Shown here: positions 1 to 38,358 of the stretch, in pieces | Layout: each line of letters begins with the position of its first letter | Position numbering within the stretch: position 1 is the stretch's first letter | DNA from: Thermodesulfobacteriota bacterium | Lineage (GTDB): Bacteria; Thermosulfidibacterota; Thermosulfidibacteria; Thermosulfidibacterales; B14-G1 | Direction: 5' to 3' | DNA: 64,000 nt | Assembly (NCBI GenBank): GCA_024274915.1 | Contig: JAJSAC010000063.1 | Location: forward strand, 1 to 64,000 | Position numbers and translations under genes: made by a program | The notes under the pieces: generated by a model | Told to the model about the DNA's origin: nothing | The model's input: the letters and a program-made list of their open reading frames with translations, nothing else | Database searches by the model: none

Positions 1-3000
1 AATGCCGTGGGCGAGGGGTCCTATGTAGAAGTCACTGACATGGGGGTTGGCATTCTTGGTACAGTGGGGTCTTCGTCTTTCTCCAATAGTGGGGTCATCT
101 CCACCAATGCAGTGGCGGGTAATGCATCTGAGGAAGATTCTTGGGTGTACCTTGGTTGGGGGGACTATTATCCGATCTATGGAGTTCTCTTTGGTGATAG
201 TGTAGGCAGCTTCGACAACAGCGGCACCATATCAGCTATCGCCCAGGCAGGGAGTGCCAGTGGATATGACTCTTATGTGGGTATCGGTGGTGTCTTTGGC
301 ACAATCTTCGGCTATTTCGGAGGTGACGTAGGCAGTTTCACCAACACCGGCACCATAAGCGCCAGTGCGGTGGTGGGTGGTGCCAGCGAATACGGTTCGT
401 GGGTTGAAATATACGACGTCTATGGTGCCTACTTTGGTGGCTATGTAAGTACCTTCACCAACTCGAGTCCGGACACCATCAGTGCCAGTGCAAGCATAGG
501 GGACGTGAGTGGCGAAGATGCCTATGCTGAGATCTGCAGCTACTATGAAGGTTCGGCCGGTGTTACAGGTGCCTACTTCTACTACCCTGTGGGTAGCTTT
601 GAGAACAGCGGTACCATCAGTGCCAGTGCGAGCATAGGAGATGTGAGTGGCTATGATGCTGGTGCTGATATTTACAGTTATTACGAAGGCTCACCAGCAG
701 TAACAGGTGCCTACTTCTACTATGGTGTGGATAGCTTTAAGAACAGTGGCACCATCAGTGCCAGTGCAAGCATAGGGGATGTGAGTGGAGAGGACGCCTA
801 TGCTGAGATCTGCAGCTACGACGATGAGGCTCCTGCTGTGGCAGGTGTGTTTTTCTATGATGAGGTGGGCACCTTCACCAACTCAAGCCCGGACACCATT
901 AGTGCCAGTGCGAGTATAGGGGATGTGAGTGGCGAAGATGCCTATGCTGGGATATGGAGTTATTATTCGCCAGCAGTAACAGGTGCCTACTTCTACTACC
1001 CTGTGGGTAGCTTTGAGAACAGCGGTACCATCTCTGCCAGTGCAAGCATAGGGAACGTGAGTGGCGAAGATGCCTATGCTGAGATCTGCAGCTACGACGA
1101 TGAGGCTCCTGCTGTGGCAGGTGTGTTTTTCTATGATGAGGTGGGCACCTTCACCAACTCAAGCCCGGACACCATCAGCGCCAGTGCAAGCATAGGGGAT
1201 GTGAGTGGAGATTATGCCGATGCTGAGATTTACGGCTACTACGAAGGTTCGCCAGCAGTTACAGGGGCTTACTTCTACTATGGGGTAGATGATTTTGATA
1301 ACAGTGGCACCATTAGTGCCAGTGCGAGCATAGGTGATGTGAGTGGCGATTATGCCTATGCTGAGATCTGGAATGATGACTATGAGGCACCTGCAGTGGC
1401 GGGTGTCTTCTTCTACGATGAGGTGGGTACCTTCACCAACAGTGGAGACATCTTGGCCAGTGCGAGCATAGGCGATGTGAGCGGAGACTATGCCAGTGCT
1501 TACATAGATGGTTACTATGAGGGTTCGCCAGCAGTTACAGGGGCCTACTTCTACTACCCGGTGGGCAGTTTTGATAACAGTGGCACTATCTCTGCCAGTG
1601 CGAGCATAGGTGATGTGAGTGGCTATAGAGCCGATGCTGAGATTTACAGTGATGACTATGATACCGCAGCTGTAGCAGGCGTCTTCTTCTACGATGAGGT
1701 GGGTACCTTTACCAATTCAAGCCCGGACACCATCAGCGCCAGTGCGAGCATAGGTGATGTGAGTGGAGAAGGTGCCTATGCTGGGATTTACGGTTACTAC
1801 GAAGGTTCGCCTGCAGTGACAGGAGCCTATTTCTACTATGGTGTGGACAGCTTTGAGAACAGCGGTACCATCTTGGCCAGTGCGAGCATAGGGGACGTGA
1901 GTGGCGAAGATGCCTATGCTGAGATCTGGAATGATGACTACGAGGCTCCTGCGGTGGCGGGTCTGTTTTTCTATGATGAGGTGGGTTCCTTTAATAACAG
2001 TGGCACCATCAGCGCCAGTGCGAGCATAGGCAACGTGAGTGGCTATGATGCTGGTGCCTGGATTTACAGTTATTACTATTATGCACCGGCAGTAACAGGA
2101 GCCTATTTCTACTATGGTGTGGATAGCTTTGATAACAGCGGTACCATCTTGGCCAGTGCGAGCATAGGCGATGTGAGTGGAGATTATGCCTATGTTGGGA
2201 TTGGGGCTTATGAAGATGAGGCTCCTGCGGTGGCTGGTGTATCCTTCTACGATGAGGTAGGTACCTTCACCAACTCAAGCTCGGATACCATCGGTGCCAG
2301 TGCGAGCATAGGTGATGTGAGCGGCTATGATACCTATGCTGAGATTTCTGGCTACTACGAAGGTTCGCCTGCAGTAACAGGTGCCTACTTTTACTATGGT
2401 GCGGATAGCTTTGATAACAGCGGCACCATCAGCGCCAGTGCGAGCATAGGTGATGTGAGTGGAGAGGATGCCTATGCTGAGATTTACAGTGATGACGATG
2501 ATACCGCTGCTGTAGCAGGTGTGTTCTTTTATGATGAAGTTGGTACCTTCACCAATAGTGGTACCATTTCTGCCAGTGCAAGCATAGGGGACGTGAGTGG
2601 AGATTATGCCTATGCCGGGATTTACGGCTATGACGAAGATGCGCCTGCAGTAACAGGTGCCCACTTCTATTACCCTGTGGGCACCTTTGAGAACAGCGGT
2701 ACCATCTCTGCAAGCGCCCAAATAGGGAATGCCAGTGGGTATGATTCGGAGATTGAGGTGTACGATATCAACGGTATCTACTTTGATGACGAGGTGGGCA
2801 CCTTCACCAATTCAAGCCCGGACACCATCAGCGCCAGTGTTGTGGCGGGTGATGCCAGTGAGACTGATGCCTCAATTCAATTGGGAGAGCCGTTTGATGG
2901 AGTCTACGGTGTAAAGTTTGGAGACTATGTGGACAGTTTCAGCAACAGTGGAACAATAACTGCCTCTGCTCGTGCCGGGGATGCCAGTGGAGAGGATGCC

Positions 3001-4923
3001 ACAGTTGGGATTAGTACTGTTGTGGCAACGGTATTTAATGGAGTGGGGAGTTTCACAAATGAGGGTAATATACACACCGATGTGGTGGTTGGTGATGCTA
3101 GCGGTACCGATAGCTCTGTAAGTGTTGATACAATCGGAGGAGCAGTATTCATGGGAGATGCTGACTCGGTTGTCAACCGCGGCAATATCACCACCTCGGT
3201 CTCTGCAGGAAGTGGCAGTCAGGTTTCGCACGTATCAGCTTTGACCTCTTTTGGGGGATATGCAGATATCACAAACTATGGCAATATAGGGACACAGATC
3301 ACTGTTGGGGCCGATTCCTATGTGGACCATGTGTACGGTGTGCACCTGTGGGGTTCTTACGGCTCCTTTACAAACTATGGCAATGTTTTCCTCTATGTTG
3401 ATCCTATCTTTGTTATAGGTGGTGGGGGCGGCTCTGCAACTGCAGATAGCGCCGCTGGGATCTACGTTGAGAACTCCGAGGTGACTATATCCAGTCCGGG
3501 CACCATCTATCTCTACACGGACATTCCCGATGCAGACATCAGGACCCTGTGGATGAAGGACTCTTACGTCACTTTCCTGGATAAATTTGGGATCGTCTTT
3601 GGCTCCCCTGGCATCACCAAGAGGCCCATATATCTGGATGACATGGGGACCACCCTTGACCTGAACGGTGCCAGGTTGGTTGCCTATGCCGATAGGGACC
3701 TCAAGATCAATCACCCGTATTACCTCATAGAGCTCAGTGATCCCGAGGTGGATACGGTGTCCGATTACTTTGGTGGCCTCATTGATGGTACCAGGAACCC
3801 CGATATCAGCCCCAGTTGGTATGGACCTGCCCGTGGGGAGGATGCGCCGGAGGAAGTGGCGGTTATCTGGAGATATGACCCCCAACACTCCACGGCGGAT
3901 TTGTCCATCCATGCCTCTCAGGTGGTGGCTAGGAACATGATGAGCTTTGTCACCTCCCACCTCATGTATAACAAGCTCCTGTGGTGGGTGACAGAGAAGG
4001 GAGAAGAGGGGAATGTGAAGCTGGCGGACAGCGGCCAGATAGCCACTGAAGCGGGTCCTCCAGTGGCAACGGCGGCATCGACTACCAGGGAGTACAGGAA
4101 CGGTGCCTTCTTCTATCCCGTGTACACCGACGTGGAAGCTGACGATCTGGGTTACGATGCCCATGGCATAGGCTTCACCCTTGGTCTTGAGCGCATGGTC
4201 ACCGATGCTGTGAACGTGGGGATCTTTGGAGGAATCTCCAAGGTGGACGTGAACTTCAACGACTATGATTACGGTGGCATTGACGACGAGCAGGACATTT
4301 ACACCGTAGGGCTCTATGTCAATTACGCCTGTCGTCCCTGGTATCTGGGAATGGTTGCCATGGGCTACGGGGTGCAGCATGACTACGAAGGACGCACAGG
4401 TCCTGACTACAACATGAGGGAGACTGCAGACTACTGGAGCCACGGATTCGAGGGCGAGCTGGTGGGTGGCTATGTCCTGGGAGACCAGAGGAACTGGATG
4501 ATCATGCCCGAGCTGGGAGTGGGCTTCAGCTACTGGAGGGTGGGCGATTACAAGACGGACGCTGACTACTCCAACTGGGACAAGGAGTACGACAGCGAAG
4601 ACGACAGCTACTTCCGCTCCATTGTGGGGCTTACGGGTTTGAAGAGGTGGGTGGTCAAAGACACCAAGATAGACCTGTTGGCCTCGGTGAAATGGGAGCA
4701 GGCGTTGGGAGACAATGATATTTCCATAACCCAGTCCATACCCGGTATAGGCTCCGGTAAAGAGGACGTGGAAGAGGATATTGGAGATACCTCCATAGTC
4801 GGAAGACTAGGCTTGAGTCTGACCATAATGGATAGGGCCAAGCTCAACCTGACCTTCAGGAGCGAGTTCAACGAGGACTATACCGTGTACTCTGGCCGGG
4901 TGTCCCTGGGAATCTCTTTCTAG
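1..4923 (+). CDS. Giant repeat-rich autotransporter (5' end outside window)
   Basis: The reading frame is open at base 1 (N-A-V-G-E-G...) and its first residues fit the repeat pattern that follows, so the GTG at 7 in the ORF track is almost certainly internal and the true start lies upstream. About the first 1,200 residues are beta-helix-like repeats of the form F-x-N-S-G-T-I-S-A-S-A, including 16 highly similar copies. After residue 1,370 comes a domain with alternating aromatic and hydrophobic strands (GAFFYPVYTDVEADD, GIGFTLGLERM, WYLGMVAMGYGVQHDYEG) ending in ...VSLGISF, a terminal Phe as expected of outer-membrane barrels; this fits an autotransporter beta-domain. Predicted role: surface-exposed or secreted passenger, possibly an adhesin, anchored by its own barrel. 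A terminator follows immediately. Family assignment is by pattern only; the passenger function is unknown. Confidence 0.85.
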   Translation, partial: NAVGEGSYVEVTDMGVGILGTVGSSSFSNSGVISTNAVAGNASEEDSWVYLGWGDYYPIYGVLFGDSVGSFDNSGTISAIAQAGSASGYDSYVGIGGVFGTIFGYFGGDVGSFTNTGTISASAVVGGASEYGSWVEIYDVYGAYFGGYVSTFTNSSPDTISASASIGDVSGEDAYAEICSYYEGSAGVTGAYFYYPVGSFENSGTISASASIGDVSGYDAGADIYSYYEGSPAVTGAYFYYGVDSFKNSGTISASASIGDVSGEDAYAEICSYDDEAPAVAGVFFYDEVGTFTNSSPDTISASASIGDVSGEDAYAGIWSYYSPAVTGAYFYYPVGSFENSGTISASASIGNVSGEDAYAEICSYDDEAPAVAGVFFYDEVGTFTNSSPDTISASASIGDVSGDYADAEIYGYYEGSPAVTGAYFYYGVDDFDNSGTISASASIGDVSGDYAYAEIWNDDYEAPAVAGVFFYDEVGTFTNSGDILASASIGDVSGDYASAYIDGYYEGSPAVTGAYFYYPVGSFDNSGTISASASIGDVSGYRADAEIYSDDYDTAAVAGVFFYDEVGTFTNSSPDTISASASIGDVSGEGAYAGIYGYYEGSPAVTGAYFYYGVDSFENSGTILASASIGDVSGEDAYAEIWNDDYEAPAVAGLFFYDEVGSFNNSGTISASASIGNVSGYDAGAWIYSYYYYAPAVTGAYFYYGVDSFDNSGTILASASIGDVSGDYAYVGIGAYEDEAPAVAGVSFYDEVGTFTNSSSDTIGASASIGDVSGYDTYAEISGYYEGSPAVTGAYFYYGADSFDNSGTISASASIGDVSGEDAYAEIYSDDDDTAAVAGVFFYDEVGTFTNSGTISASASIGDVSGDYAYAGIYGYDEDAPAVTGAHFYYPVGTFENSGTISASAQIGNASGYDSEIEVYDINGIYFDDEVGTFTNSSPDTISASVVAGDASETDASIQLGEPFDGVYGVKFGDYVDSFSNSGTITASARAGDASGEDATVGISTVVATVFNGVGSFTNEGNIHTDVVVGDASGTDSSVSVDTIGGAVFMGDADSVVNRGNITTSVSAGSGSQVSHVSALTSFGGYADITNYGNIGTQITVGADSYVDHVYGVHLWGSYGSFTNYGNVFLYVDPIFVIGGGGGSATADSAAGIYVENSEVTISSPGTIYLYTDIPDADIRTLWMKDSYVTFLDKFGIVFGSPGITKRPIYLDDMGTTLDLNGARLVAYADRDLKINHPYYLIELSDPEVDTVSDYFGGLIDGTRNPDISPSWYGPARGEDAPEEVAVIWRYDPQHSTADLSIHASQVVARNMMSFVTSHLMYNKLLWWVTEKGEEGNVKLADSGQIATEAGPPVATAASTTREYRNGAFFYPVYTDVEADDLGYDAHGIGFTLGLERMVTDAVNVGIFGGISKVDVNFNDYDYGGIDDEQDIYTVGLYVNYACRPWYLGMVAMGYGVQHDYEGRTGPDYNMRETADYWSHGFEGELVGGYVLGDQRNWMIMPELGVGFSYWRVGDYKTDADYSNWDKEYDSEDDSYFRSIVGLTGLKRWVVKDTKIDLLASVKWEQALGDNDISITQSIPGIGSGKEDVEEDIGDTSIVGRLGLSLTIMDRAKLNLTFRSEFNEDYTVYSGRVSLGISF
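475..2700 (+). repeat. 16 coding tandem repeats of ~140 bp in alternating A/B types
   Basis: Sixteen successive units of about 46-48 residues each begin with a variant of T-I-S-A-S-A-S-I-G-D-V-S-G. Two kinds alternate: type A contains PAVTGAYFYY, type B contains PAVAGVFFYDEV. The order is A A B A B A B A B A B A B A B A, so the effective unit is a ~280 bp dimer. Nucleotide identity between copies is high (gccagtgcgagcatagg recurs nearly unchanged), which indicates recent duplication or gene conversion. More divergent units flank the block on both sides. Confidence 0.92.
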
Positions 4924-4946
4924 ACCTTGGCTTAAGACGGGAGTCA

Positions 4947-4979
4947 AGCCCCCCTCCAAAAAGGGGGGCTTTTTATTTT
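4947..4979 (+). terminator. Rho-independent terminator after the autotransporter
   Basis: AGCCCCCC pairs with GGGGGGCT around an eight-base loop (TCCAAAAA) and is followed by TTTTATTTT. It starts 23 bases after the autotransporter stop codon. Confidence 0.9.
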
Positions 4980-5098: not shown

Positions 5099-5353
5099 CA
5101 GGACTTCCCCCAAAATTCCCTTCCTGGTAAAGGCATCATGTTCAGAATCCTGGATTTTTTCTCTCCAACAAGTGAAAGGGCGGGGCATTCCTCCCTCCCT
5201 TGCCCATGGCTGATAGCTGATGGCTCATGGCTCATGGCTGATAGCAACTGTGAGCTATGAACCATGAACTACGAGCTATGAACTATGAGCTATCATCTCT
5301 GCGTTCGGAACACCCCGCCCTGACCCATAGGACTAAAACTGGGGGAAGTCCTG
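5099..5353 (+). mobile_element. MITE-like element, copy A (255 bp)
   Basis: The ends are perfect inverted repeats CAGGACTTCCCCCA / TGGGGGAAGTCCTG. They are flanked by GTGTTTTCC (5090-5098) and GTGTTTCCC (5354-5362), a 9-bp duplication with one mismatch. A second inverted pair lies inside (GGGCGGGGCATTCC with GGAACACCCCGCCC). The centre consists of short repeated words (ATGGCTGATAGC, ATGGCTC, GAGCTATGAAC) and is the longest of the three copies. No ORF of its own. It fills most of the 508-bp gap between the autotransporter and the aminotransferase gene; the rest of the gap holds the upstream terminator and a promoter just downstream of the element. Confidence 0.85.
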
Positions 5354-5431: not shown

Positions 5432-6637
5432 ATGTTGGAGCGGGAGTTTTTGAGGATTAAGAGGCTTCCCCCTTACGTCTTCGCCATTGTGAATGACCTC
5501 AAGTACAAGGCAAGGCGTAGGGGAGAGGATATTATAGACCTGGGCATGGGGAATCCCGACATCCCCACCCCCACCCACATCGTGGACAAACTGGTGGAGG
5601 CGGCCAGGAATCCCAGGAACCACAGGTATTCCAGCTCCAAGGGTATTCCCAAGCTCAGGGAGGCCATTTGCAACTGGTACAAGAGGAAGTTCAACGTGGA
5701 CCTGGACCCTGAGACGGAAGCCATAGCCACCATTGGGGCGAAGGAGGGCATTGCCCACTTCACCCTGGCGGCCCTGAGGCCCGGGGATGTGGCTCTGGTG
5801 CCCACTCCCACCTATCCCATTCACGCCTATTCCATTGTGATAGCTGGGGGCGATCTGAGGAGTGTGCCCCTTCTGAATGGCACAGACTTCTTCGAGAGCC
5901 TTATGAAGGCTGTGCGCCAGACCTGGCCTGTGCCCGAGATGCTTATTCTGAGTTTTCCCCACAATCCCACCACCAAGGTGGTGGATATGGAGTTCTTCTA
6001 TAAAGTGGTGGACTTCGCTAGGGATCACGACATCATTGTGGTCCACGACTTTGCTTATGCTGAGCTGGTTTTCGATGACTATTGCCCTCCCTCCATTCTC
6101 CAGGTTCCCGGGGCTAAAGATGTGGCGGTGGAGTTTTATTCCCTCTCCAAGACCTATTCCATGCCTGGATGGCGGGTGGGTTTCATGGTGGGCAACTCCA
6201 AACTGGTGGAGGCCCTGGCCAAGCTGAAGAGTTACTATGATTATGGCATCTTCCAGCCCATCCAGATCGCCGCCATCGTTGCCCTTAATGGTCCCCAGGA
6301 GTGCGTTAAGGAGATCGTGGATACCTATAGAAGAAGGCGAGATGTCCTGGTAGACGGCCTGAATCGCATAGGTTGGAGAGTGGAGAAGCCTAAAGGCACC
6401 ATGTTTGTATGGGCCGAAATCCCGGGCGAATATAAACACATGGGTTCTCTGGAGTTTTCCAAGTTTCTCCTGAAGGAGGGTAAGGTGGCGGTCTCTCCCG
6501 GCATTGGCTTTGGTTACAACGCCGACGACTATGTGCGGTTTGCTTTGGTGGAAAATGAGCAGCGGATTCGCCAGGCCCTGAGGGGTATGAAGAAAGTCTT
6601 AACCCTGGGGGAGAAAAAGAAATGGGTGGCCGTGTGA
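5432..6637 (+). CDS. alaC: PLP-dependent class I/II aminotransferase (alanine aminotransferase AlaC-like)
   Basis: 401 residues, the usual size for fold-type I aminotransferases. Visible marks are [11 protein letters not shown] near the N-terminus, the substrate and PLP-contact segment FPHNPTT, and [14 protein letters not shown], whose Lys should form the Schiff base with PLP. The closest subfamily by eye is the AlaC/LL-diaminopimelate aminotransferase group; members annotated as glutamate-pyruvate aminotransferase commonly sit next to homoserine dehydrogenase, as here. It overlaps the start of hom by 16 nt, implying co-translation. The precise amino donor is not decided by the sequence. Confidence 0.82.
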
Positions 6638-7977
6638 GCCCGGAGTCTCCGAAAGGTCGTGGGACTTTTCGGGATGCTATTGGGATTGGTCTCATCGGCT
6701 TTGGCACTGTGGGCACTGGGGTGGTGCGTATTCTCATGGAGAAGGGTGAACTCCTCAAGGAGCGCTTGGGTGCCCAGCTGGAACTGGTAAGGATTGCTGA
6801 TGTGGACCTGGTGAGACCCAGGGATGTCCAGGTGGACGCATCCCTTTTGACCACTGATGCCATGGAAGCCATTCACCATCCCCAGGTGGACGTAGTGGTA
6901 GAGCTTGTGGGTGGTATAGAGCCTGCCAAGAGCTTCATTTTGGAGGCTCTTGGGGCAGGTAAGCCTGTGGTGACGGCCAATAAAGCCCTCCTGGCTGAGG
7001 CTGGGGAAGAGATCCTTCGGGCCCTGGAAGAGACAGGTGTCGATCTGGGTTTTGAGGCCAGTGTGGCAGGAGGTATCCCTATCCTGAAGGCCTTGAGGGA
7101 AGGTTTGGTGGCTAACACTATCTCCTGTATTTACGGTATTATCAATGGAACGGCCAATTATGTTCTTACCATGATGGAGAGGGAGAGGCTCTCTTTCCAG
7201 GAGGCTCTGGCCAACGCCCAGGCCGAAGGTTACGCCGAGGCTGATCCCACCCTGGATATCAGTGGTATGGACGCCGCCCACAAGGCTGCTATCTTGGCCA
7301 CCATGGCCTTTGGACGCTACTTCAAGGCCCAAGAGATCTATGTAGAGGGTATAGACCGGGTGGACTCCAAAGACATACTCTACGCCCAGGAGCTGGGTTA
7401 TCGGGTTAAACTGCTGGCTATAATAAAGGGCGGTGATCGGGTGGAGATTCGGGTTCACCCCACCATGATACCTCTGGACCATTCCTTGGCCAAGGTGGAG
7501 GGGGTTTTCAATGCCGTCTACGTAGAGGGTGATGGGGTGGGCCCTACCATGTTCTATGGCCGTGGGGCAGGGGAGATGCCCACGGCCAGTGCTGTGGTGG
7601 CCGATGTGGTGGACATAGCCCGGGACCTTTTGAAGGGGGTGGGGCGCAGGGTGCCTCCGTTCTCCTATGATAAACTGGATAGAGAGGTGGCACTAAAGCC
7701 CATGGACGAGGTGGTGACCCGGTATTACATGCGGTTTACAGCCCAGGATCGTCCGGGGGTACTCTCCAAGATCTCGGGGATCTTGGCTTCCAGGCATATT
7801 TCCATAGAGTCGGTGATCCAGAAGGGACGCCGAGAGGAAGGTACGGTTCCTGTGGTGATGATGACCCACGAGGCTACGGAGAGGGACGTGAGGGAGGCCT
7901 TGGAAGAGATAGATCGGCTGGATGTCATTGGCAGGAAAACAGTTCTTATCCGGGTGGAGGACGGGGGAGGCTGGTAG
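6622..7977 (+). CDS. hom: Homoserine dehydrogenase with C-terminal ACT domain
   Basis: Reduces aspartate semialdehyde to homoserine, the branch point to threonine and methionine. The N-terminal Rossmann motif is [13 protein letters not shown] (residues ~23-35); the family segments VTANKALLA and [10 protein letters not shown] follow. The last ~80 residues ([21 protein letters not shown]) form an ACT domain, which in this family mediates feedback inhibition by threonine. 451 residues is normal for the ACT-bearing form. The ATG at 6622 lies inside the 3' end of the aminotransferase gene; a GTG at 6634 is an alternative start. Confidence 0.95.
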
Positions 7978-8061: not shown

Positions 8062-9285
8062 ATGGCCAAATACGTGGTACTCCTCGGCGACGGCATGGCT
8101 GACGAGTCTTTAGAGGAGCTAGGAGGAAAGACGCCCTTGGAGGTGGCTTCCGTACCTAACATGGATAGGATGGCCCAAGAGGGGATCTGCGGCTGGGTGA
8201 GGACCGTGCCCCCGGGAATGCCCCCAGGTTCCGATGTGGCCAACCTTTCGGTTTTGGGTTTTGATCCGGCCAGGTACTACACAGGCAGGGCCCCTCTAGA
8301 AGCCGCCAGCATGGGGGTGGAAATGGGTCCTGGGGATGTGGCCTATCGTTGCAACCTGGTGACGGTGAAGGACGGGATCATGGAGGACTACAGCGCTGGG
8401 CACATCTCATCGGAGGAGGCCTCTTTGCTCATAAGGGACCTTCAAGAAACCCTGGGGAACGAAGAGTTTTCTTTTTATCCCGGGGTGAGCTACCGCCATT
8501 TGCTGCTGTGGAGGGACGGCGGGGATGCAATAGAGACAACGCCTCCCCATGACATTTCTGGTAGGCCTATCCGGGACTATCTACCAAGGGGAGAGGAATC
8601 GGAGAAGATTTTAGAGCTTATGGAGAGGTCCCGGGAAGTCCTGGCCCGTCATCCTGTTAACAGAAGGAGGGTGGAGGAGGGCAAGAACCCTGCCACCATG
8701 ATTTGGCTTTGGGGCCAGGGGGAACGACCCAGTTTGCCTGCTTTTCGGGATGTTTACGGTTTGAGAGGAGCTGTTATCTCGGCGGTGGATCTCATGAAGG
8801 GGTTGGCTGTTCTTCTGGGGATGGAACCCATAAGTGTGCCTGGGGCCACAGGCTATCTGGACACCAATTATGAGGGCAAAGCCCGGGCGACTTTGGACTT
8901 TCTCCGGGAGAAGGGGGACCTGGTCTACTTGCATATCGAGGCCCCCGATGAGGCAGGGCATCAGGGGGATGTGGAAGCCAAGATCCGGGCCATTGAAGAT
9001 ATAGATTCTCGGGTGCTCCCCCTCCTTCTGGATGCGGCCCATTCCAGCGAGGAACCCTTCAGTATCCTGTTGCTCTGCGATCATCCCACCCCCATCACCA
9101 TCAAGACCCACACGGCAGATCCCGTACCTTTCGTGATATGGCGAAGCCACCAGGAGAGGGCAGGGGAGGGGGGCTACAACGAAAGGGCCCTCCAGCACCT
9201 CACCCCCTACACCATAGAGGAGGGCCACAAGCTCATGTCCCTCTTTCTGGGCCATCTCTGCCACGGGTGCGGGGGCTGTGGGTAG
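8062..9285 (+). CDS. apgM: Archaeal-type 2,3-bisphosphoglycerate-independent phosphoglycerate mutase family (possible homoserine kinase)
   Basis: 407 residues of the alkaline-phosphatase superfamily ApgM group. Expected residues are present: the first metal Asp in LLGDGMAD (~9-14), the Ser nucleophile in GSDVANLS (Ser ~57), EAPDEAGHQGD with Asp and His ligands, and CDHPTP...HTADPVPF with the second Asp/His set. The family either interconverts 2- and 3-phosphoglycerate or, in some anaerobes where it sits with threonine genes, has been proposed to phosphorylate homoserine. Its position between hom and lysC, with no thrB in the window, makes the second role plausible. ATG preceded by GGGGAGAG. 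A second, altered homologue lies at 24936. Confidence 0.85.
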   Translation: MAKYVVLLGDGMADESLEELGGKTPLEVASVPNMDRMAQEGICGWVRTVPPGMPPGSDVANLSVLGFDPARYYTGRAPLEAASMGVEMGPGDVAYRCNLVTVKDGIMEDYSAGHISSEEASLLIRDLQETLGNEEFSFYPGVSYRHLLLWRDGGDAIETTPPHDISGRPIRDYLPRGEESEKILELMERSREVLARHPVNRRRVEEGKNPATMIWLWGQGERPSLPAFRDVYGLRGAVISAVDLMKGLAVLLGMEPISVPGATGYLDTNYEGKARATLDFLREKGDLVYLHIEAPDEAGHQGDVEAKIRAIEDIDSRVLPLLLDAAHSSEEPFSILLLCDHPTPITIKTHTADPVPFVIWRSHQERAGEGGYNERALQHLTPYTIEEGHKLMSLFLGHLCHGCGGCG

Positions 9286-9288
9286 GAG

Positions 9289-9390
9289 AGGCTAAGGGCT
9301 AAGGACGAAGGGCTGGAGGCTAAAGGCTAGAGGCTAAAGGCTAGAGGCTAAAGGCTAGAGGCTAGAGGCTAAAGGCGAAGGGCAGAGGGT
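9289..9390. repeat. Imperfect GGCTAAAGGCTAGA short-word tandem repeat
   Basis: About 100 bp immediately after the apgM stop consists of 6-8 bp words related to GGCTA(A/G)AGGCTAGA repeated around a dozen times with small changes. No ORF or terminator is evident in it. The same style of repeat recurs at 12378-12450 and 48192-48240. Confidence 0.8.
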
Positions 9391-9552: not shown

Positions 9553-10797
9553 ATGGCACTGGTAGTGCAAAAGTACGGTGGAACTTCCGTGGGCACGGTG
9601 GAGAAGATCAAGAGCGTGGCCAGGAGGGTGGCCAAGACCAAAGACGCCGGAAATGATGTGGTGGTGGTCATCTCGGCCATGGCGGGGGAGACGGACAGGC
9701 TAATAAGCTTGGCCAAGGAGATCACAGAGATGCCCGACGAGAGAGAGATGGACATGCTCCTTTCGTCGGGAGAGAGGGTCTCATCCGCTTTGTTGGCCAT
9801 AACCCTCAAGGCCATGGACTATCCTGCCCGTTCTTTTACGGGTAGGCAGGCAGGTTTCATCACCGACGGTGTTCACACCAAAGCCAGGATAAAAAAGATT
9901 GAGGCTCAGCAGGTGAGAGATGCCCTGGCCCGGGGCGAGATCGCTGTGGTGGCGGGTTTTCAGGGTGTGGACGAGTTGTCCCATGATGTGACCACCTTGG
10001 GGCGCGGTGGTTCCGACACCACGGCGGTGGCCCTGGCGGCTGCCCTCCAGGCCGATGTGTGTGAGATCTACACGGATGTGGAGGGTGTTTATACTGCTGA
10101 TCCCAGGATCGTGCCCCACGCCAGGAAGTTAGATCGTGTATGTTTCGAGGAGATGATGGAGATGGCCAGTGCCGGGGCCAAGGTGCTCCAGGTCAGATCC
10201 GTAGAGATGGGTATGAAGTATGGGATACCCATACATGTGAGATCCACCTTTACAGATAAGGAGGGAACCATGGTGGTGCCATTCAGCGAAGAGATGGAAG
10301 CGGTGTTGGTTTCGGGAGTGACCCATGACAAGAACCAGGCCAAGATTACGGTCATGGGAGTGCCTGACAGGCCGGGCATAGCCAAGGCCCTCTTCACTCC
10401 CATTGCCGATGCGGCCATAAATGTGGACATGATCATCCAGAACGTGAGTCAAGACGGACTCACTGACATCTCCTTCACTGTGGCCAGGACGGACCTGCCC
10501 AAGGCCATTGAGGTGATGAAGGAGGTGGTACCCACATTAGGGGCCAAGGGTTTCACCACCAATGCGGATATTGCCAAGGTTTCTATAGTGGGTGTGGGAA
10601 TGCGGTCCCATCCCGGCGTGGCCGCCAAGATGTTCGAAACCCTGGCCAACGAGGGGATCAACATCCTCATGATTTCCACCTCTGAGATCAAGGTGAGTTG
10701 TGTCATCGAGGACAAGTATACCGAGTTGGCTGTTAGGGCTTTACACGATGCTTTTATAGGAGAGAGGGGAAGTAGTGGAAAAGGTGAAGAAGGTTAA
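9553..10797 (+). CDS. lysC: Aspartate kinase
   Basis: Phosphorylates aspartate, the first step to lysine, threonine and methionine. Starts [11 protein letters not shown], the kinase ATP-binding signature; further marks are [24 protein letters not shown] and [12 protein letters not shown]. Two ACT domains follow from about residue 265 ([16 protein letters not shown] and [18 protein letters not shown]), the normal arrangement for single-domain kinases with end-product inhibition. 414 residues is typical. RBS GGAGGGAAGAG precedes the ATG. It overlaps cimA by 23 nt, so the two are translationally coupled. It is separated from apgM by a 267-bp gap with repeats and a palindrome. Confidence 0.96.
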
Positions 10798-12376
10798 GCT
10801 TTACGATACCACTTTGAGGGATGGTACCCAGGCGGAGGAGATCAGCTTCTCCAGCATGGACAAGCTCATGATCGCCGAGAAGCTGGACGAGCTGGGTATC
10901 CATTACATTGAAGGTGGGTGGCCTGGGTCCAATCCCAAGGATATGGAGTTTTTTGCGCTGAGCAAGAGGCTCAACCTGAAACAGGCCAAGATTGCCGCCT
11001 TCGGTTCTACCAGGAGGGCAGGGATTAAGGCCCAGGACGATCCCAACATCAAGATGCTTCTCAAGGCCGATGTGCCCGTGGTCACCATCTTCGGTAAATC
11101 CTGGGATCTCCACGTCACCGATGCCCTGAGGTGCAGTCTGGATGAGAACCTGAAGATGATCTACGATTCCGTCTATTACGTTAAGGATCGGGTGTCCGAG
11201 GTGATTTACGATGCCGAGCACTTTTTCGACGGGTACAAGCGGAACCCCGAGTACGCCATGAGGACCATATGGGCTGCCGAGGAGGCAGGGGCCGATTGTA
11301 TTGTTCTCTGCGACACCAATGGGGGGTGTCTACCCTTTGAGATCCAGGAGATCGTGGCCAGGGTGCGCCAGGAGATCTCGGCGCCTTTGGGTATCCATGC
11401 CCACAACGATTCGGAAACGGCTGTGGCCAATTCCATCATGGCCGTTCTTTGCGGGGCTGAGCACGTACAGGGGACCATTAACGGCTTCGGTGAGCGCTGT
11501 GGCAACGCCAACCTCTGCTCCATCATCCCAAATCTCCAGCTCAAGATGGGCATTGAGTGTGTCTCTCCCCAACAGCTCAATGACTTGACCAGGATTTCCC
11601 GTTTTGTCTATGAGGTGGCCAACCTGAAGCCCTGGCCCCACCAGCCTTATGTGGGCAAGAGCGCTTTCGCCCACAAGGGCGGGGTTCATGTATCGGCGGT
11701 CATGCGCAATCCCGAAACCTATGAGCATATCCGGCCCGAGTTGGTGGGTAATCGCCAGAGGGTGCTGGTCTCCGACCTCTCGGGCAGAAGCAACATCGTC
11801 TACAAGGCCCAGGAGTTTGGTTTGGATTTGGACTCTAAAGACCCCGTGGTCCAGAATGTTCTGGAGGACCTCAAGGTGTTGGAGCACCAGGGTTATCAGT
11901 TTGAGGGGGCCGAGGCTTCTTTTGAAATTCTGATTAAGAAGGCCATGAAGAGGTTTAAGCCTTACTTTTCCCTAAAGGGCTTTCGGGTCATTGTGGATAA
12001 GAGGAGTCGAGAGGACGAACCTGTGAGTGAGGCTATGGTGAGGGTGAGTGTGCCCCCTGATAGGATGGAGCACCAGTTTATGGCTGCTGAGGGTAACGGT
12101 CCTGTCAATGCCCTGGACAGGGCATTGAGGAAGGCCCTGGAGGAGTTCTATCCCAGTCTCTCCACCGTCCAGCTCACCGATTACAAGGTCCGTATCCTGG
12201 ATGAGGCGGCGGGAACGGCGGCCAAGGTCCGGGTCATTATAGAGTCCACCGATGGCAAACGCCGCTGGGGCACTGTGGGGGTCCATGAGAACGTAATAGA
12301 GGCTTCCTGGCAGGCTCTGGTGGACTCCATTGAGTACAAGCTCATGAAGGACGAAGAAGAGAACGGCCAAGAGTAA
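10775..12376 (+). CDS. cimA: (R)-citramalate synthase
   Basis: Condenses pyruvate and acetyl-CoA to citramalate for threonine-independent isoleucine synthesis. The N-terminal TIM barrel has [14 protein letters not shown], the metal-binding [13 protein letters not shown] and [12 protein letters not shown]; the C-terminal third carries the LeuA-type regulatory domain. 533 residues and the sequence style match the long citramalate synthase group found in Geobacter and relatives rather than 2-isopropylmalate synthase. The start is a GTG inside lysC. A strong terminator follows about 75 bases after the stop. Confidence 0.93.
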
Positions 12377-12377
12377 G

Positions 12378-12450
12378 TACGGGCAGAGGTAGAGGCAAAG
12401 GTAGAGATAGTGAAGTTCAGATAGCGGCAGAGTAGGGGTAGAGAGGGCTG
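12378..12450. repeat. Degenerate GGTAGAGGCAAAGGTAGAG short-word repeat
   Basis: The space between cimA and the terminator is made of variants of GGCAGAGGTAGAGG. Resembles the repeat after apgM but is shorter and more degraded. No gene is seen here. Confidence 0.5.
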
Positions 12451-12451
12451 A

Positions 12452-12487
12452 GGGCAGAGGAGGGAAATCCTCTGCCCTTTATTTTTT
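12452..12487 (+). terminator. Terminator between convergent cimA and DUF3108 gene
   Basis: GGGCAGAGGA and TCCTCTGCCC form a perfect 10-bp stem with a six-base loop, followed by TTTATTTTTT. The T-rich tail overlaps the stop codon of the minus-strand gene, so the stem can also serve as that gene's 3' end. Confidence 0.88.
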
Positions 12488-24935: not shown

Positions 24936-26189
24936 GTGCTTCTAGTGGTCCTGGATGGTCTGGGTGACCAGGCCCTGGAGGCTCTGGGAGGTAGGACACC
25001 CCTCCAGGTGGCCAGAACGCCCCAGCTTGATCATCTGGCCCTTCTGGGGGGAGGAGGGAGCTATCACCCTGGCAGGATGGGGGTGGCCTATTTCAGTGAT
25101 CTGGCTTTCTTTATTGCTTTAGGGTACTCCCAGGGGGAATTTCCCGGTAGGGGGGTTCTGGGTGGGTACGCAGCTGGGCTTTCCATATCTCCTGGAGAGG
25201 TTTACGCCTTGGCTTCCATGGTTTCCCTGGAGGAGAGCTGTCCAGACGGACCCATCTTGGTGGAGCGGGGCGGTGATCTGGCACCAGAGGAGTGGGAAGA
25301 AGCCCTGGAGATCCTGTCTCGTCCCTGGCATGGCAACGGGGTAGAGATCACCTTCCATCCTTTGGAAGTGGGTATAGGAATCCTGAAGCTTGAAGGGGAA
25401 GTAGATCATCGAATCACCGATTCAGACCCTTCTCATAGGGGAGGGAAGGTCTACCAGGTGATGTCCAGAGGCGAAGAAGGAGAACTGGCAAGCCACACGG
25501 CCAGGGAGTTGAATCGTTACCTGGATGGGGTGGCTTGGAGGCTGAGGGAGGCTTCCTTTAACGCGTTGAGGATCAGGGAGGGCAAGAATCCCATGAATGC
25601 CCTTTTGGTTCAAGGGGCGGGCAGAGATAAGTTCCTGCCGTTTTTGAAGGAGCGCTGGGGGTTCGATGGTGCCCTGGTGGCTTCTGAGCCGTTTATCCTG
25701 GGGATAGGGAAGAAGTTGGGCATGGCGGTGATAGGGGTGGGAGAGGGAAGTCCCAAAAAGGAGCTCCTGATCAAATTTAAAGAGGCCCTACCCCTGCTTG
25801 AAACCTACTCCATGGTGGTGATCCATACCCGTGCTCCGAAGCTGGCTTCCAGGAAACACAACCCCTGGGAGAAGGTGAAAGTGGTAGAGGAACTGGATGG
25901 GGCCTTTTCCTATCTCCTGGAATACCTTGTACCCAGGGAAGAGAGGCTATTAGTGGTATGGGGCGGTTCTTCTACATCTACGGGAGGCCCTTATCTCTAT
26001 TCAGGAGATCCATCCCCCCTGTTGATGATAGGTCCCCGGGTGAGGAGGGGGCCTAGCCTCAAGTTTGATGAGCCTTCCCTGGCCTATGGGTCTATAGGTT
26101 TTCTAAAGAGGGAAGAGCTTATGCTCACTATCTTGAGCTATACGGGTAGGGCACCTCTCTGGGGAAGACACCAGGGTTTGCTGGTATAA
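24936..26189 (+). CDS. ApgM-family paralogue lacking the usual metal ligands
   Basis: 417 residues, clearly homologous to the gene at 8062: LVVLDGLGDQALEALGGRTP corresponds to VVLLGDGMADESLEELGGKTP, and the nucleophile region FSDLAFFIALGY keeps Ser-Asp. However EAPDEAGHQGD of the first copy is replaced by RAPKLASRKHN, and CDHPTP...HTADP by WGGSST...LYSGDP, removing Asp/His residues that bind the two metals in this superfamily. It is therefore probably not a normal phosphoglycerate mutase. It ends the iorAB transcript. GTG start, weak RBS; the true start could be a few codons upstream. Function unknown. Confidence 0.8.
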   Translation: MLLVVLDGLGDQALEALGGRTPLQVARTPQLDHLALLGGGGSYHPGRMGVAYFSDLAFFIALGYSQGEFPGRGVLGGYAAGLSISPGEVYALASMVSLEESCPDGPILVERGGDLAPEEWEEALEILSRPWHGNGVEITFHPLEVGIGILKLEGEVDHRITDSDPSHRGGKVYQVMSRGEEGELASHTARELNRYLDGVAWRLREASFNALRIREGKNPMNALLVQGAGRDKFLPFLKERWGFDGALVASEPFILGIGKKLGMAVIGVGEGSPKKELLIKFKEALPLLETYSMVVIHTRAPKLASRKHNPWEKVKVVEELDGAFSYLLEYLVPREERLLVVWGGSSTSTGGPYLYSGDPSPLLMIGPRVRRGPSLKFDEPSLAYGSIGFLKREELMLTILSYTGRAPLWGRHQGLLV

Positions 26190-37861: not shown

Positions 37862-38358
37862 AGGGGCGGCCCCTTTTTCTGTTGGGTTTCATGGGGTCAG
37901 GGAAGAGCACCGTGGGCCTCCTACTGGCTAAGGCTCTGGGTTGTCCCTTTGTCGATTTGGATGCCCTCATTGTGGAGCGGGTGGGTAGGAGCATTGAGGA
38001 CATCTTTGATACCGAGGGGGAAGAGGGTTTCAGGAGGTACGAGACCCAGGCCTTAAGGGCAGTGGCTAGGAAAGCCTCGGTGGTGGCCACCGGTGGGGGG
38101 GTGGTGACCCGTGAGGAAAACTGGGGGGTGCTGAATAGTGGCATTACGGTGGCCCTTACAGCATCTCCTGGTGCGTTAAGGCGGAGGTTGAGAAGGGGTG
38201 ATGGACGCCCCCTTCTTCGGGGTGAGAAGGGTTGGGAGGAGTTGCTGATAGAGAGGGAACCCCTTTACAGGAGGGCCTGGCTGGTTATAGATACTACAAA
38301 CTTGACGCCCCGAGAGGTGGTCGATCGCATCTTGAGGGCTCTCGAGGAGGGGTCTTGA
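37825..38358 (+). CDS. aroK: Shikimate kinase
   Basis: Phosphorylates shikimate. P-loop [10 protein letters not shown], substrate-binding Asp in [25 protein letters not shown] and VVATGGGVV are diagnostic. The track's start at 37714 lies deep in aroC and gives a Gly/Arg-rich shadow N-terminus; no ATG or GTG is suitably placed, so I prefer TTG at 37825 (177 residues). A CTG at 37858, touching the aroC stop, is another possibility. The stop overlaps the start of aroQ (TTGA). Confidence 0.9.

Follow-up and report, generated by a model that had tools for sequence, protein, structure and literature searches.

The gene at 8062-9285 of the window (the whole stretch of 64,000 nucleotides analysed here) most likely codes for the enzyme that forms O-phosphohomoserine on the way to threonine, in a lineage where none of the known homoserine kinases occurs. 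We put the probability of this sequence-based reading at roughly 85%. Homoserine kinase is among the commonest missing amino acid steps, with only low-confidence candidates in 29 of the 148 prototrophs analysed with GapMind (PMC7311316). The earlier note regarded the protein as a candidate homoserine kinase and stated that ApgM-like proteins had been proposed for this role in anaerobes. Such a proposal does exist in the literature, as the family model TIGR02535, in GapMind (PMC7311316) and as ThrB2 (PMC9026213). The idea is thus already published, and the protein of the window adds one member to a predicted family. The candidate itself is supported by what was observed in sequence, context, genome content and residue pattern, namely the lack of any known homoserine kinase gene, the presence of thrC, the neighbouring genes, the rare co-occurrence with thrB and the residues of the active site.

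The open reading frame starts with ATG, contains no internal stops and encodes a protein with the domains Metalloenzyme and PhosphMutase. The gene is the third in a same-strand run with the order aminotransferase-hom-apgM-lysC-cimA, and the hom/lysC/cimA neighbourhood claimed from the first inspection was confirmed (Table 1). An Rfam search for RNA regulators in the gene run yielded matches only far under the gathering scores, and promoter-like sites were about as numerous as in shuffled sequence. The gap between apgM and lysC carries a tandem array with the 7-base unit AGGCTAA in 12.6 copies (9289-9376), which is absent at the locus of the sister species (L041). Comparable 7-base arrays occur upstream of the gene run at 5205-5293. 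Further upstream, a large open reading frame on the forward strand (7-4923, 1638 aa) encodes a C-terminal autotransporter beta-domain and contains a 138/276-base tandem repeat array at 474-2706.

Table 1. Positions of the gene run, of key codons of the candidate and of other relevant features in the window.
Feature	Position	Strand	Remark
Terminator-like hairpin 5' of the gene run	4946-4971	+	Weak; such matches in the region are near the chance number
PLP aminotransferase (alanine / LL-diaminopimelate aminotransferase type)	5432-6637	+	Opens the gene run
hom, homoserine dehydrogenase with ACT domain	6622-7977	+	Would supply the proposed substrate
Candidate homoserine kinase / homoserine phosphotransferase, TIGR02535 protein (ApgM superfamily)	8062-9285	+	407 aa
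Codon of metal ligand D10	8089-8091	+	Conserved 113/113
Codon of nucleophile S57, motif PPGSDVANLS	8230-8232	+	Conserved 113/113
Residues 110-114, YSAGH	8389-8403	+	In place of RRAGR of PGM-type relatives; alignment and pattern-free subset
W215-x-W217	8704-8712	+	W217 in place of PGM arginine; W215 113/113, W217 112/113; 36/36 in pattern-free subset
E293 to H300, EAPDEAGH	8938-8961	+	Metal ligands D296 and H300; E293 in place of PGM lysine
Metal ligands D340 and H341	9079-9084	+	Alignment of 113
Metal ligand H350	9109-9111	+	Alignment of 113
lysC, aspartate kinase	9553-10797	+	
cimA, citramalate synthase	10775-12376	+	
Terminator-like hairpin 3' of cimA	12450-12479	+	12 base pairs; weak by itself
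Second ApgM-like open reading frame	24936-26189	+	Has lost metal ligands; no candidate for kinase or mutase
Shikimate kinase domain	37891-38343	+	Between aroC-like and aroQ-like frames; only full SKI match of the genome

The database names for the protein conflict, since it exceeds the cut-offs of both the NCBIfam model TIGR02535 'proposed homoserine kinase' (572.5 bits, cut-off 446.3) and NF003242 'cofactor-independent phosphoglycerate mutase' (579.5 bits, cut-off 426). NF003242 and TIGR02535 seem to be two names for one protein group. The protein also matches the apgM model TIGR00306 (554 bits, cut-off 320) and fails PRK04024 (NF003104), an equivalog model for phosphoglycerate mutase (PGM), with 322 bits against a cut-off of 489. 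In a quick tree of 73 rows, the TIGR02535 proteins including the one of the window form a single clade apart from PGM-type relatives (SH-aLRT 100). Structure prediction gave a poor model from a six-sequence alignment (pLDDT 66.8) and a confident one from a deeper alignment (pLDDT 95.7, pTM 0.91). The closest solved structure to the model is 2zkt (TM 0.83).

No known type of homoserine kinase was detected in the genome, which is a draft of 2.03 Mb in 77 contigs and 93% complete. The earlier note had suggested a genome search for a GHMK-type thrB, and none was found (TIGR00191); the only GHMP kinase is IspE, and a domain search found no GHMP domain in the candidate itself. The alternative kinase thrB_alt (TIGR00938) was rejected as the homoserine kinase of the genome, with zero matches here or in any of the nine genomes of the phylum. 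A shikimate-kinase-type homoserine kinase as in Desulfovibrio was likewise rejected, because no additional SKI gene was found; the genome has one full SKI match and one marginal P-loop match covering 35 positions. The position of the full match between aroC-like and aroQ-like frames makes such a role unlikely. The window was said to lack both thrB and thrC, which is correct, with thrB found nowhere in the genome and the sole match to threonine synthase (thrC) located outside the window on contig C31. The same contig bears an HcyBio (DUF39) gene and a NIL-ferredoxin gene. In Desulfovibrio, such genes yield homocysteine without a homoserine intermediate (PMC5764234). Their presence suggests that methionine synthesis in this genome is independent of homoserine, which may hence serve threonine alone.

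Absence from a single draft is weak evidence and the genomes of relatives were therefore examined. In the phylum of the window, thrB exceeds the cut-off in 0/9 genomes and TIGR02535 in all seven genomes searched. Among 50 TIGR02535-bearing genomes of named relatives (Nitrospirota, deltaproteobacteria, Dadabacteria, Methanosarcina and others), only three have thrB over cut-off. A second phylum, the one to which a Geobacteraceae member belongs, was sampled with 148 near-complete genomes; TIGR02535 is over cut-off in 122 of these and thrB in two. Control genomes carried thrB over cut-off in 11 of 14 cases, the exceptions being Caulobacter, Bacteroides ihuae and Methanosarcina acetivorans. The latter two match TIGR02535, and 2/3 of the matching controls are over cut-off. 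These counts agree with the complementary pattern of thrB and TIGR02535 published for gut bacteria (PMC9026213). In all five genomes found to have both genes, with thrB over cut-off (L083, L104, L126, G062 and G064), the examined flank of the TIGR02535 gene contains no hom, lysC or thrC. Two of these genomes are from related Clostridia and have the gene beside urease-like genes (L083:6998-8212, L104:6980-8218). Their proteins carry E, not H, at position 114, and a change of function is possible. In L126 and G064 the gene lies beside a CTP synthase-like gene; the urease and CTP synthase names were assigned by reading open reading frames, with no family search.

Threonine-pathway genes are frequent neighbours of TIGR02535 genes in other lineages as well. 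Across 80 loci from named records, the genes adjacent on the same strand within 400 bp include thrC (26 loci), lysC (24) and hom (7); another 11 loci have lysC on the opposite strand. Any of the three genes is near in 57 of the 80 loci. For the 55 loci with adequate flank (at least 3 kb upstream and at least 2.5 kb downstream) the count is 43, with a chance expectation of about one. The identity of thrC was confirmed by NCBIfam in three example loci. The order hom-apgM-lysC-cimA recurs in a Nitrospinota genome (L120) and in the sister species (L050). Within the phylum of the window, hom and apgM are linked in 4/4 genomes of family f1; no such link was found on the short contigs of families f2 and f3. 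Several Nitrospirota loci (L075:3914-6981, L084, L110) have two different, adjacent thrC genes separating hom from apgM.

The active site combines an intact catalytic centre with a consistent loss of residues typical of phosphoglycerate mutases. The comparison was based on an alignment of 113 TIGR02535 proteins, two archaeal PGMs of known structure and four paralogues of the type found on contig C55. All seven catalytic residues (D10, S57, D296, H300, D340, H341 and H350) are present in the candidate, as the first inspection had stated, and are kept in 113/113 TIGR02535 proteins. We take the roles of these positions to be those of their counterparts in iPGM, by analogy. Thirteen basic positions are invariant in the six PGM-type rows, a small comparison set. 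Six of these (R76, R96, R145, K307, H341 and H350) are kept in every TIGR02535 protein, and seven (H61, R110, R111, R114, H144, R217 and K293) are lost in every one, usually replaced by N, Y, S, H, Y, W and E, respectively. Newly conserved residues are W215 and E297 (113/113) and D243 (112/113). The patterns of the genome scan spanned residues 107-114 and 158-165, which inflates conservation there for loci L050-L129. The count was therefore redone on 36 sequences obtained by HMM or from the window, and the loss of the seven basic residues was unchanged in this pattern-free subset. Judging from their conservation, we infer that the seven positions are probably substrate-binding in PGM; no residue-level data on the substrate residues of archaeal PGM ApgM were found in the literature searched. 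Their loss is evidence against phosphoglycerate as the substrate, and the loss of positive charge with a gain of acid would fit a change from anionic phosphoglycerate to zwitterionic homoserine.

A separate phosphoglycerate mutase likely exists in the same genome. The earlier note counted two family members and suggested that they could have specialised. Two is too few, as the genome holds four ApgM-type genes and one short distant relative. The argument of specialisation has to be revised, since the likely mutase is another family member, located on contig C55, and not the second one of the window. The residues specific to PGM are retained in the C55 paralogue (L002:1444-2673), whose score with the PGM model PRK04135 is 600 bits against a cut-off of 468, and it is thus the best candidate phosphoglycerate mutase of the genome. 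The metal ligand His300 is replaced by Glu in the PRK04135-type protein of all four phylum members having one. A further ApgM-type gene on contig C61 has lost several PGM-specific residues. In the second ApgM-like frame of the window, five metal ligands are replaced (D296K, H300R, D340G, H341S and H350Y), and the frame stays open. The frame follows iorA-iorB in 4/4 genomes of its family, and its dN/dS of about 0.08 against the sister species equals that of the intact gene. By these sequence criteria it is a conserved predicted pseudo-enzyme next to indolepyruvate ferredoxin oxidoreductase-like genes.

The candidate could combine phosphoglycerate mutase and homoserine phosphotransferase activities in one promiscuous protein, perhaps with phosphoglycerate as donor. 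A phosphoserine mechanism would permit both activities, and no C55-type gene was seen in three of the seven phylum genomes (G001, G002 and G004), where an additional PGM role is possible. However, these three drafts are incomplete, and the PGM-specific arginines and lysine are lost throughout the clade, including in these genomes, so that we consider a dual function improbable. An ordinary archaeal-type cofactor-independent phosphoglycerate mutase, placed by chance beside hom and lysC, would explain the intact catalytic residues and the archaeal PGMs as best PDB matches. NCBI names these proteins phosphoglycerate mutase in the NF003242 model (579 against 426 bits), and archaeal-type genes of deltaproteobacteria and Bacteroidetes were counted as iPGM by Foster 2010 (PMC2964296). 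Yet all 113 clade members lack the seven basic residues listed above, while the C55 paralogue of the same genome retains them and scores 600 bits for PRK04135. Geobacter genomes additionally have a bacterial-type iPGM (PMC2964296). A chance neighbour can explain neither the threonine context in 43/55 loci nor the rarity beside thrB. We rejected this as the main reading on the residue loss and the threonine-gene context, and consider it very improbable. Another threonine-related role, such as an L-threonine kinase for cobalamin with something else as the true homoserine kinase, would be in line with the corrinoid-operon position of the Dehalobacter member Dehre_1608 (PMC4285132) and with the negative complementation of E. 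coli thrB by BT2402 (PMC7311316). It is nevertheless the least probable reading, given the hom/thrC/lysC neighbourhood with zero cobalamin genes among the classified neighbours and given that threonine rescues BT2402 mutants (PMC7311316), as would suit a function upstream of threonine and not downstream of it.

As an O-phosphohomoserine-forming enzyme, the candidate would act between Hom and ThrC. Hom would produce homoserine, the candidate would phosphorylate its hydroxyl group, and the ThrC encoded on contig C31 would convert O-phosphohomoserine to threonine. By analogy with phosphoglycerate mutase, the two-metal centre (D10, D296, H300, D340, H341 and H350) would activate S57. This residue would accept phosphate from a donor, and the enzyme, now carrying phosphoserine, would hand the phosphate on to homoserine. 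The homoserine pocket might be formed where arginine, lysine and histidine of the PGM type are swapped for S, H, Y and W together with the acidic E293 and D243. Candidate phosphate donors would be phosphoenolpyruvate (PEP), ATP or another phosphate compound. The loss of the PGM residues makes phosphoglycerate a poor donor candidate, and PEP or ATP remain. A PEP-like donor was proposed by the TIGRFam curators (cited in PMC7311316). More specifically, the protein might be a metal-dependent homoserine phosphotransferase that draws its phosphate from a donor other than a nucleotide, for example phosphoenolpyruvate, and transfers it by way of phosphoserine; we rate this tentative proposal from sequence at somewhat short of even odds. 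The literature searched held no biochemical homoserine kinase assay for the TIGR02535 family. Mutants of Bacteroides BT2402, a TIGR02535 member, require threonine (PMC7311316), and a personal communication cited in PMC7311316 states that the gene did not complement an E. coli thrB mutant. The failed complementation might have come from metal loading, oxygen or the supply of the donor, or the reading may be wrong.

The protein resembles other members of TIGR02535 / ThrB2, such as BT2402 of Bacteroides thetaiotaomicron (PMC7311316, PMC9026213), in its score over cut-off, the intact metallo-centre, the hom/thrC/lysC context and the absence of thrB. In Bacteroidetes, ThrB2 shares its operon with thrC and an asd-hom fusion (PMC9026213), in contrast to the gene of the window, which lies in its aminotransferase-hom-apgM-lysC-cimA run with thrC elsewhere. 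Unlike BT2402, it belongs to a small and little-known phylum, here covered by nine genomes. The archaeal ApgM proteins (PDB 2zkt, 3kd8) share the fold (TM 0.83 to 2zkt) and the seven catalytic residues, but H61, R110, R111, R114, H144, R217 and K293 are all substituted in the TIGR02535 clade. The shikimate-kinase-type homoserine kinase DvMF_0971 of Desulfovibrio vulgaris (PMC5764234) is likewise a non-orthologous replacement of ThrB, though from an unrelated family of which no second clear gene is present here. Dehre_1608 of Dehalobacter, a proposed L-threonine kinase (PMC4285132), has the TIGR02535 domain as well; its gene belongs to a corrinoid operon, whereas the gene of the window lies amid threonine-pathway genes.

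The genome counts suggest that TIGR02535 proteins are the standard replacement of homoserine kinase in at least one large phylum (122/148 genomes) and in the phylum of the window (7/7 searched). The old prediction held up against the refuting searches made here and now has a residue-level argument against the mutase annotation. Databases confuse TIGR02535 proteins with genuine phosphoglycerate mutases, and the residue pattern also provides a simple way to tell the two apart. If the protein is indeed a phosphotransferase with a non-nucleotide donor, a large share of anaerobic bacteria and Methanosarcina would make threonine without a direct ATP cost at the homoserine step, and proteins labelled phosphoglycerate mutase across those groups would be misnamed.
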